A DNA stretch of 64,000 bases. It comes from Chitinophagaceae bacterium (lineage in GTDB: Bacteria; Bacteroidota; Bacteroidia; Chitinophagales; Chitinophagaceae). Made by a program: the position numbers and the translations under genes. The stretch is taken from assembly GCA_947504605.1 (NCBI GenBank), contig CANNJE010000005.1, positions 1-64,000 on the forward strand, in the 5' to 3' direction. The notes beneath the pieces were generated by a model. The model did not search any database. It was given only the letters and a program-made list of their open reading frames with translations, and was not told the DNA's origin. Positions 11,557 through 12,821 of the stretch are shown one piece after another; position 1 is the first letter of the stretch; every line of letters begins with the position of its first letter.

Positions 11557-11975
11557 ATAAATATTTTTTTAGATATTTTTTCCAGTAATTATCGCTGCAA
11601 CAGGTTTTTCTGCGTGCTGTTATATTGAGATACGGCAACAAAAAAAGAATCAAACCACTGTTTTTTTTCTGAGATTCTCAGGGATTCATTATCGTAAATA
11701 GTGAAATTTTTGGTAATGCCATATATTCAGAAACCCCATTGATTAATAAAACTTTGACCATTGGATGCTATTCTTTTTAAAGCCTTTGTCTATCCTATGA
11801 ATTTTCTTATGTTGTTGAAAAGTCGTTAAACAAAACATACAGATGCAGAAATTAAATCTGCATTTTATTGCAGTTAATTTTTGTTATGAAATCTATATTT
11901 GATAATATAGCAGTTCAAAATTGCAATTTGTTATGTGGGTACATTTGTTATTTTTTGAAGTTGCGGAAGAAATAA
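11557..11975. other. Intergenic stretch without recognisable gene
   Basis: About 420 AT-rich bases between the T9SS gene and the terminator of the minus-strand RNA. A short hairpin (ATGCAGA at 11843-11849 with TCTGCAT at 11857-11863, then a T-rich tail) could act as a weak plus-strand terminator. No coding frame or other structure stands out. Confidence 0.45.
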
Positions 11976-12008
11976 AATTAAAAAAGCCTCCGTTTATTCA
12001 ACGAAGGC
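11976..12008 (-). terminator. Terminator of the minus-strand tRNA-like RNA
   Basis: Read on the minus strand, GCCTTCGTT and AACGGAGGC form a nine-base-pair stem (one G-U) with a five-base loop, followed by a T run and further AT. It lies ten bases beyond the 3' end of the tRNA-like structure. No minus-strand protein gene ends here, so it marks an RNA transcript. Confidence 0.8.
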
Positions 12009-12017
12009 TTTTAGAAG

Positions 12018-12195
12018 CTGTAGGGGAAGGGGTCGAACCTTCACGAGGCAGTTAGCTATAGTACAAAGTTCGGTGGTCGACCCCGGTCGGAATATTCACC
12101 TTACGGTGAACAATCCGGCTCTATGCTACGTTTATCCTGTTATCCTCACCCCCGAGACAAGGGGGCATGTCTGCCAAAAATTTCATCACCCCACA
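12018..12195 (-). ncRNA. Structured RNA with tRNA-like ends and a 106-nt variable region
   Basis: Reading the minus strand, TGTGGGG (12195-12189) pairs with CCCTACA (12025-12019) as a seven-base-pair acceptor stem with one G-U. U8-type T follows, then a D arm ATG/CAT (12186-12167) with GG in the loop and the GGCAGA sequence typical of class II tRNAs. An anticodon-type arm CCCCC-TTGTCTC-GGGGG (12165-12149) is next. A perfect T arm GAAGG-TTCGACC-CCTTC (12042-12026) joins directly to the acceptor strand; the discriminator would be G and no CCA is encoded. Between the anticodon arm and T arm lie 106 bases that fold further: GAGG/CCTC at the base, a nine-pair stem with two bulged A, and TTCACC-GTAA-GGTGAA. 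In anticodon position it shows GTC with U37, which is abnormal. It could be a highly modified tRNA gene or a tRNA-derived regulatory RNA. Family unknown to me. Confidence 0.6.
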
Positions 12196-12199
12196 GTAT

Positions 12200-12238
12200 A
12201 ATCGATCTTTATCGATTTGGTTTGATAAAACAAAGATA
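12200..12238 (-). promoter_or_regulatory. Promoter box and inverted repeat upstream of the tRNA-like RNA
   Basis: The minus strand carries TATCTTTG (12238-12231), a full match to the TAnnTTTG -7 box, about 36 bases before the tRNA-like 5' end. This implies a leader that would be removed by RNase P. Between them lies AATCGAT-CTTT-ATCGATT (plus strand 12200-12217), a seven-base inverted repeat. AATCGATT occurs again at 12334-12341, seven bases before the asnC start, which hints at a shared operator but is not proof. Confidence 0.4.
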
Positions 12239-12347
12239 AAGTAAATTGCCTTAATTTTAAAAATAATTCAACAAATATTTTGTAATTATAGAAATTAATC
12301 AAATATTTGCATTAATTATTGAAAATAATCTAAAATCGATTGTAAAA

Positions 12348-12821
12348 ATGGCAGCCAAATTAAATCTTGACAAACTTGATCTTCAAATCATTGAAGCAAT
12401 GATGCAAAATGCGGAGATCTCTTATGCAGAACTGGGTAAAAAACTCTTTGTAAGTGGTGGTACCATCCATGTGCGTATTAAAAAACTACAAGAGTTTAAT
12501 ATCGTTAAAGGTACAAGGTTAAGTGTAGACCTAAGACAGCTGGGATATGACATTACCGCTTTTGTGGGAATTTACCTGGAAAAAAGTTCCATGTATGATG
12601 CTGTTGCAGAAGACCTGAAGAAAATTCCAGAAATTATCAGGTTAAATTATACTACGGGCAATTATAGTATGTTTATAGAAATAGTTTGTAAAGACATTGC
12701 TCAGCTTCGTTATGTTTTACACGATGCGCTACAAAAAATAAAAGGTATTGAAAGAACAGAAACATTTATATCGCTGGAGGAAGGTTTTAGCAGAAATGTT
12801 CCGGTAGCTCCAGCCGATTAG
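12348..12821 (+). CDS. Lrp/AsnC family transcriptional regulator
   Basis: A 157-residue regulator. An N-terminal winged helix-turn-helix covers residues 1-60 (LDKLDLQIIEAMMQNAEISYAELGKKL...GTIHVRIKKL). A C-terminal RAM effector/oligomerisation domain follows at about 65-150 (DITAFVGIYLEKSSMYDAV ... GIERTETFISLEE). Lrp/AsnC proteins sense amino acids and often control their own gene and a few neighbours. It is divergent from the tRNA-like RNA, and an AATCGATT palindrome lies directly before its start. The effector cannot be inferred. Confidence 0.93.
   Translation: MAAKLNLDKLDLQIIEAMMQNAEISYAELGKKLFVSGGTIHVRIKKLQEFNIVKGTRLSVDLRQLGYDITAFVGIYLEKSSMYDAVAEDLKKIPEIIRLNYTTGNYSMFIEIVCKDIAQLRYVLHDALQKIKGIERTETFISLEEGFSRNVPVAPAD

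Follow-up and report, generated by a model that had tools for sequence, protein, structure and literature searches.

A tRNA-like RNA of Bacteroidota and large phages that joins aspartate and GatCAB determinants to a long variable domain

A 178-nt tRNA-like RNA is encoded on the minus strand of the analyzed DNA (the window, meaning the whole 64,000-nt stretch from a Chitinophagaceae bacterium). By its determinants alone, this RNA is a combination of the marks for charging with aspartate and the mark for amidation by GatCAB; the two reactions are inferred. It represents a large structured family that has no match in Rfam 15 and, as far as tested, no match to a described class, and on the evidence of its anticodon loop it is probably non-decoding. 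We consider it probable, though well short of certain, that the RNA is a tRNA-like, non-decoding carrier for GatCAB-dependent asparagine synthesis, in which charging, amidation, release and regulation are all inferred. The proposed reaction, itself inferred, would amount to known chemistry carried out on a carrier that is new and does not decode. If this is true, a widespread RNA class with no Rfam 15 match, mostly unseen by ARAGORN, would uncouple the tRNA-dependent making of an amino acid from decoding, large phages would have an amino-acid-supply RNA in their tRNA arrays, and there would be a concrete reason for GatCAB retention in bacteria with both AsnRS and GlnRS, a question discussed in PMC4206432.

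Structure, detection and distribution of the RNA family

Table 1. Features of the RNA locus and its flanks in the window.
Feature	Coordinates	Strand	Remarks
tRNA-like RNA	12017..12195	minus	178 nt, U1 (12195) to discriminator G73 (12018), plus encoded C74 (12017)
Acceptor stem, 5' strand UGUGGGG	12189..12195	minus	U1-A72 and G2-C71 are never-varying pairs
Acceptor stem, 3' strand CCCUACA	12019..12025	minus	A72 at 12019
D arm, Leu-like, 3-bp stem AUG/CAU	12167..12186	minus	C-A-G-A after G18G19
Anticodon arm CCCCC-UUGUCUC-GGGGG	12149..12165	minus	GUC at 12158-12156, U37, C38; loop 12160-12154
Variable domain, 106 nt	12043..12148	minus	covariation in bacterial and phage copies
Variable domain, inner order			base helix GAGG/CCUC, CAG/CUG, long helix GUAGCAUAGAG/CUUUGUACUAU, variable tip hairpin, GGGUCGACCAC hairpin
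T arm GAAGG-UUCGACC-CCUUC	12026..12042	minus	pair 50-64 changed on both sides in 22/61
-7-type box TATCTTTG, presumed Bacteroidota type, upstream of RNA	12231..12238	minus	sequence
Terminator-like hairpin with T-rich tail, downstream of RNA	11982..12012	minus	one found; shuffles 0.4
Lrp/AsnC-family regulator gene, divergent from RNA	12348..12821	plus	closest NCBIfam model AsnC

The elements that the first-pass annotation had read from the window, namely a seven-pair acceptor stem, a T arm of five pairs and a seven-nucleotide loop with TTCGA, a D arm with GG, the loop TTGTCTC and a variable region of 106 nt, are all present on the minus strand (Table 1). The full cloverleaf (7-bp acceptor stem and D, anticodon and T arms), taken as the criterion for tRNA membership, is thus complete. 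The predicted fold of this strand reaches -67.9 kcal/mol, whereas shuffled sequences average -53.8 (z -3.18); one of 200 shuffles did equally well.

Comparison of homologues supports this structure. When 61 homologues were scored against a manually specified structure, pairing was possible in 98.8% of cells, 15 of the 42 pairs changed on both sides (shuffled mean 9.7; none of 500 shuffles as high), and 174 cells were changed on both sides, compared with a shuffled mean of 43.8. Covariation of the acceptor stem (6-67), the T arm (50-64) and the variable-domain stems, whose absence would have refuted the first-pass annotation, was thereby found. In 36 phage copies aligned alone, the paired share of cells is 97.4%, compared with 77.0% for shuffles, and both partners are changed in 20 of 29 pairs (mean of the shuffles 15.2, maximum 18); this alignment omits identical copies, one copy that is cut off (L306) and three with mis-cut starts (L308, L313 and L321), and the phage consensus fold does not include the T stem. 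The D stem is constant in the 61-homologue set and covaries in the phage copies, and in every helix there are pairs of which both partners differ in copies from bacteria or phages. A small extra hairpin occurs in the D loop of some copies, namely L032 and L050 and the phage copies L298, L311 and L332.

The conserved part of the variable domain consists of GAGG/CCTC, CAG/CTG, GTAGCATAGAG/CTTTGTACTAC and the GGGTYGACCAC hairpin. The variable region had been described as structured: its GAGG/CCTC base is indeed conserved, but the TTCACC-GTAA-GGTGAA hairpin turned out to be a variable tip, which is replaced even in the second copy of the same assembly. Because the domain has its own conserved, covarying architecture, the idea of an unusual insertion in a tRNA fits less well, and an ordinary class II tRNA with an insertion was rejected; the other suggestion, a tRNA-derived RNA of new type, agrees with a conserved, covarying family without an Rfam match, as far as tested. 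The RNA resembles tRNA-Leu and class II tRNAs in the D-loop sequence GAAAT..GGCAGAC and the variable stem, and a covariance model of the family, R1, weakly matches tRNA-Leu; unlike these, it has G73 instead of A73, a GUC loop and a variable domain several times longer. Two intramolecular or intermolecular contacts were considered and set aside: a kissing dimer through the GGUCGACC loop palindrome, which is not kept in all copies, and pairing of the anticodon GUC with GAC of the variable-domain hairpin, which amounts to only three pairs.

Transcription had been inferred from flanking signals. Upstream lies TATCTTTG, which we take to be a -7 box of the Bacteroidota type, and the downstream terminator-like hairpin is present as well; a sigma-70 scan found no promoter. 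The motif TAnnTTTG occurs 15-75 nt upstream of the RNA in 135 of 258 copies, compared with a mean of 11.8 in 100 single-base shuffles.

Existing models do not report this RNA. ARAGORN gave no tRNA in the window, Rfam 15 at gathering scores gave zero families there and likewise on 12 further homologue loci, so that the second refuting condition of the first-pass annotation, a match to a known Rfam family with a different fold, was not fulfilled either. No match to tRNA appeared when 11950-12260 was scanned against Rfam at permissive settings, and the locus is absent from the 32 RF00005 matches in the source genome, whereas model R1, built from 61 copies, recovers 12017-12195. Like tmRNA, the RNA has tRNA-like ends and a large extra domain, and the two are close neighbours in some phage contigs; it differs in an intact anticodon arm, in an extra domain placed in the variable region and in the lack of a match to the tmRNA model (RF00023) at its locus. 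Identity with tmRNA was rejected, as the source genome has a separate tmRNA gene; it also has ordinary tRNA-Asp, tRNA-Asn and tRNA-Glu genes. Studies of bacterial tRNAs whose variable regions are very long may have been published outside the open-licence literature. Within that literature, to which the search was confined, no such RNA is named in the available parts of PMC7609411, PMC7590224, PMC9897764, PMC7162821, PMC4206432 and PMC9976931.

The family is widespread in the phylum. By blastn, which can miss divergent copies, the RNA was detected in 204 of 294 Chitinophagaceae genomes and 75 of 101 genera. Model R1 matches 158 of 395 phylum genomes, 41 of which, in seven families, were counted as members; weak matches of 72-87 nt were excluded as ordinary tRNAs because all four such loci inspected, the only ones inspected, were tRNA-Leu. 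A pattern scan of named genomes yielded at least 120 stretches with the RNA, nearly all from Bacteroidota by title; the matches listed include Chitinophaga, Mucilaginibacter, Pedobacter, Dyadobacter, Spirosoma, Algoriphagus, Saprospiraceae and others, and, outside Bacteroidota, one Ignavibacteriales MAG and one unplaced bacterium. Parsed bacterial copies are 108 to 210 nt long, and some genomes have long and short forms in tandem.

Three loci deserve separate mention. Elsewhere in the source assembly, a 3.2-kb contig (G000:C215, locus L003) contains an AsnC-like gene and a second RNA copy, 88% identical, which could be a paralogue or come from a contaminating relative (assembly contamination 3.46%). 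Phaeodactylibacter xiamenensis (L200) has the short form in five tandem copies. Locus L103 (2838-2914) is 77 nt long with U1-A72, G73-C74 and the loop CTATCTC but no variable domain, and might be a reduced member; having A34 and only 57.7 bits (a tRNA-Leu, L112, scores 58.6), it is doubtful, and it was kept among the 41.

Anticodon loop and identity determinants

Two sets of copies underlie the residue counts. The 266 parsed copies were extracted with patterns requiring GGCAG, UC..CG, TGT at the beginning and CA at the end (of 308 anchors, 5 were left unparsed; 2 bad parses were dropped), and the search patterns required U35 and C36, plus G34 for named loci. As these patterns preselected the copy ends, figures for U1, G2, C71 and A72 were taken from a model-aligned set of 120 unique copies (of 123; 84 bacterial and 36 viral) from 98 hand-chosen sources, left after 27 lower-scoring of 150 aligned rows, consisting of ordinary tRNAs, other tRNA-like phage elements and partial matches, had been dropped; 21 further model matches are outside the alignment.

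As a rule, decoding tRNAs have U33 and a purine at position 37. In this family, 258 of 266 parsed copies have a pyrimidine, U or C, at position 37, and residue 33 is U in 199 and C, A or G in 67, although U33 is present in all 36 unique phage copies; the window copy has U33 but U37, so that the combination of U33 with a purine 37 is not met. Since residue 37 is usually a pyrimidine and residue 33 varies, the RNA is predicted to be probably non-decoding. Non-proteinogenic tRNAs exist, such as staphylococcal tRNA-Gly for peptidoglycan; the RNA would be alike as a tRNA-shaped amino-acid carrier not meant for decoding, but differs from them in amino acid, partner enzymes and structure.

Encoded C74 is found in 266 of 266 copies, and 28 of the 30 listed tRNAs of the source genome likewise end N73-C74 without CA. 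In encoding C74 as the genome's tRNAs do, the RNA appears suited to CCA completion by the normal 3' maturation pathway.

According to PMC9976931, aspartate identity mainly resides in G73, G34, U35, C36 and C38, with G1-C72 and G2-C71 in addition in bacteria, and amidation of Asp-tRNA(Asn) is conferred by U1-A72, whereas G1-C72 and U20a prevent it in tRNA(Asp). U35, C36 and C38 are present in 266 of 266 parsed copies and G34 in 262 (partly preselected by the patterns). All 120 of the unique model-aligned copies have U1-A72, G2-C71 and G73-C74. The remaining acceptor pairs are not fixed: 3-70 to 7-66 all vary in phage copies, and 3-70 is nearly fixed in bacteria. Hence G73, G34 (262 of 266), U35, C36, C38 and G2-C71 are met as aspartate determinants, and the sequence requirement of GatCAB is met as well, with U1-A72 present and G1-C72 and U20a absent, the latter because C-A-G-A follows G18G19. 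Among the 30 listed tRNAs of the source genome, only tRNA-Asn and tRNA-Gln start with U, and tRNA-Asp starts with G. Some aspartate-related features are lacking: G1-C72 is missing throughout, and of 266 copies only 54 have G10, the other 212 having A (176) or U (36) at this position. Other amino acids were weighed too. A leucine acceptor was rejected for G73 instead of A73, and a glutamate acceptor because the genome's own tRNA-Glu has A73 and G34 of the RNA is nearly invariant; charging by SerRS, for which G73 and a long variable arm would be suitable, is not excluded.

The RNA shares with tRNA-Asp (GUC) the residues G34, U35, C36, C38, G73 and the pair G2-C71, and differs in U1-A72 for G1-C72, the lack of U20a, the Leu-like D arm, U37 and the 106-nt variable domain. 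The loop had earlier been called unlike that of any Asp tRNA. This was correct for residues 32 and 37, the only ones that differ from the loop of the source genome's own tRNA-Asp, but not for GUC and C38, which together with G73 are aspartate determinants. It might then be an unusual working tRNA-Asp that decodes GAC/GAU under some conditions, as GUC, C38 and G73, the occurrence of U33 in 199 of 266 copies and in every unique phage copy, the location of phage copies mostly near tRNA genes, and ARAGORN calls of tRNA-Asp for two of the shortest copies, L103 (as tRNA-Asp(atc)) and phage copy L310, would suggest. We regard this as very improbable: a pyrimidine at 37 in 258 copies and a residue other than U at 33 in 67 argue against decoding, an ordinary tRNA-Asp already exists in the genome and in several phage arrays, and U1-A72 in the presence of GatCAB would put asparagine at aspartate codons.

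GatB, asparagine supply and the AsnC-like neighbour

If the RNA is a GatCAB substrate, GatCAB is expected in the same genomes; this prediction was tested afterwards, with GatCAB judged from GatB alone (no search for GatA or GatC). GatB is present in 41 of 41 RNA-positive phylum genomes, or 40 of 40 without the doubtful L103, and in 1 of 17 chosen RNA-negative genomes of the class. The exception, G331, has no GlnRS and therefore needs GatCAB for glutamine. Outside the class, six of seven chosen RNA-negative genomes have GatB, four of them without GlnRS; G305 and G310, which have GatB and GlnRS with no RNA counted, are unexplained by the idea of a GatCAB substrate. These 24 RNA-negative genomes (17 in the class and seven outside) were hand-picked from 354. 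Within the 294 Chitinophagaceae genomes, 197 have both the RNA and GatB, seven the RNA only, five GatB only and 85 neither (GatB in 202 genomes, in 199 of which it passes the family cut-off); the co-occurrence counts were not corrected for phylogeny. Only three of the 12 mismatch genomes are at least 90% complete (G078, G290 and G076), and one of these, G078 (100% complete), has the RNA and lacks GatB.

AsnRS passes the cut-off in all 41 RNA-positive genomes and GlnRS in 34 of them, so that most can charge tRNA-Asn and tRNA-Gln without GatCAB, whereas the seven without GlnRS need GatCAB anyway. The asnA gene is present in four of the 41, and an asnB-family gene, which may or may not make asparagine, is over the cut-off in at least 36, so the RNA need not be the only asparagine source there; among the matches listed, G087, G022, G535, G602 and G476 have neither asnB over the cut-off nor asnA. 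One asnB type, matched in two profile pieces (~1-385 and 437-517), is found in at least 12 of the 17 RNA-negative class genomes and in no RNA-positive genome among the matches listed. This distribution fits a replacement, but does not prove it.

The main rival to the RNA as carrier is that tRNA-Asn is the true GatCAB substrate. In this route, known from Deinococcus, Thermus and Bdellovibrio, the carrier is a decoding tRNA-Asn charged by a relaxed or second, non-discriminating AspRS; it is alike in the U1-A72 determinant for GatCAB, and the RNA-positive genomes resemble it in having GatB beside AsnRS and mostly GlnRS. In PMC4206432, the retention of GatCAB in bacteria with AsnRS and GlnRS is discussed as serving asparagine supply or as possibly vestigial, synthesis through tRNA-Asn and a relaxed AspRS is demonstrated for Bdellovibrio, which has all three enzymes, and some Bacteroidetes genera are described with all three and no asparagine synthetase. 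The source genome's own tRNA-Asn also has U1-A72, and thus GatCAB could use it with a relaxed AspRS, which speaks against the RNA as carrier. In such a Bdellovibrio-like case the RNA would be an unamidated accessory, such as a transamidosome scaffold, for which its large variable domain could serve, a regulator or an asparagine sensor. We hold this to be unlikely, with a small chance remaining, for it leaves unexplained why aspartate determinants and the GatCAB pair, unvaried even in phages, are on the RNA, a separate molecule with GUC, an odd residue 37 and a large variable domain.

The gene divergent from the RNA encodes an Lrp/AsnC-family protein by Pfam. Against NCBIfam it scores 161.5 bits with AsnC and 62.4 with the next model, and the AsnC cut-off of 227 is not reached. 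An AsnC-like gene is divergent upstream of the RNA in 164 of 212 other loci and is the nearest upstream ORF in 163; this count omits 21 loci, mostly duplicates and also the window's own. Over all 233 loci, duplicates included, the regulator is divergent in 184; among the 49 without it, about a dozen are truncated close to the RNA. Close orthologues (at least 150 bits) occur in 44 of 395 phylum genomes, comprising 41 of 41 with the RNA and three without it (G295, G410 and G641); G031 and G155, family members listed without the RNA, gave no regulator match at E 1e-25. In some families, the regulator is unlinked to the RNA. At L276-L279 and L286-L288, the RNA is missing from its position next to the regulator. 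A different conserved sequence, short and reading GGTTTATA..., is found there upstream of the AsnC-like gene; it has a terminator-like hairpin and might be a further transcript under AsnC control.

In E. coli, asnC is divergent from asnA, which thus holds the place beside it. We give an even chance to a fuller account in which a dedicated non-decoding RNA carrier has its gene in the place of asnA beside asnC, an asparagine-sensing switch controls it, and copies in large phages sustain asparagine.

For the RNA as carrier, the following course is proposed. The RNA would be transcribed from its own promoter under the divergent AsnC-like regulator, for which synteny is observed and regulation inferred. 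It may then be processed at the 5' end and completed to CCA like the genome's tRNAs; G73-C74 is encoded, and the processing is presumed. AspRS would charge it with aspartate through G34, U35, C36, C38, G73 and G2-C71, an inferred reaction. GatCAB would amidate the aspartate to asparagine, accepting the RNA because U1-A72 replaces the G1-C72 and U20a of tRNA-Asp; the determinants and the co-occurrence with GatB are observed, the reaction is not. Finally, the asparagine might be released or handed on, a step that would supply asparagine and rests on inference only. The odd residue 37 and the variable domain would stop asparagine on a GUC RNA from entering aspartate codons, which is likewise inferred.

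Several points stand against the RNA as carrier. G1-C72 is missing and G10 mostly so, and the 106-nt variable domain might hinder AspRS. The replacement of G34 in 4 of 266 copies, the regulator's score under the AsnC cut-off, and genomes G078, G305 and G310 also count against it.

Viral copies

The RNA is carried by 44 IMG/VR contigs, 39 of which have a tRNA other than the RNA within 3 kb and three a tmRNA. Some viral pieces (L307, L308 and L335) have more than 20 tRNA genes, tRNA-Asp included, and a 636-kb phage record has one RNA copy, in a 24-kb neighbourhood for which ARAGORN predicts nine tRNAs. No AsnC-like regulator was found in the viral pieces inspected. That phages keep the RNA without the neighbouring gene suits a regulator rather than a protein partner. 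Phage copies, mostly located among tRNA genes, would perhaps sustain the asparagine supply during infection, as an inferred role.

The proximity of viral copies to tRNAs, with a tmRNA within 3 kb in 3 of 44 contigs, would also agree with an RNA that serves translation or defence and is unrelated to amidation, for example in ribosome rescue, as a decoy for tRNA nucleases or as a stringent-response sensor. This possibility is improbable in our judgement, as it does not predict the links with GatB and AsnC, and an ordinary tmRNA is present in the source genome.

A different group of elements was noticed in IMG/VR loci including L301, L305, L326 and L346. Their ends are fixed and tRNA-Leu-like (acceptor, D and T arms), and their middles are hypervariable and show no evident anticodon arm; the 66 elements longer than 95 nt have 63 distinct middles. 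For tRNA-Leu-like phage 3' ends, a 5' half lies upstream in 96 of 144, and L346 has five 3' ends in 5 kb. These elements look like tRNA-scaffolded variable RNAs.
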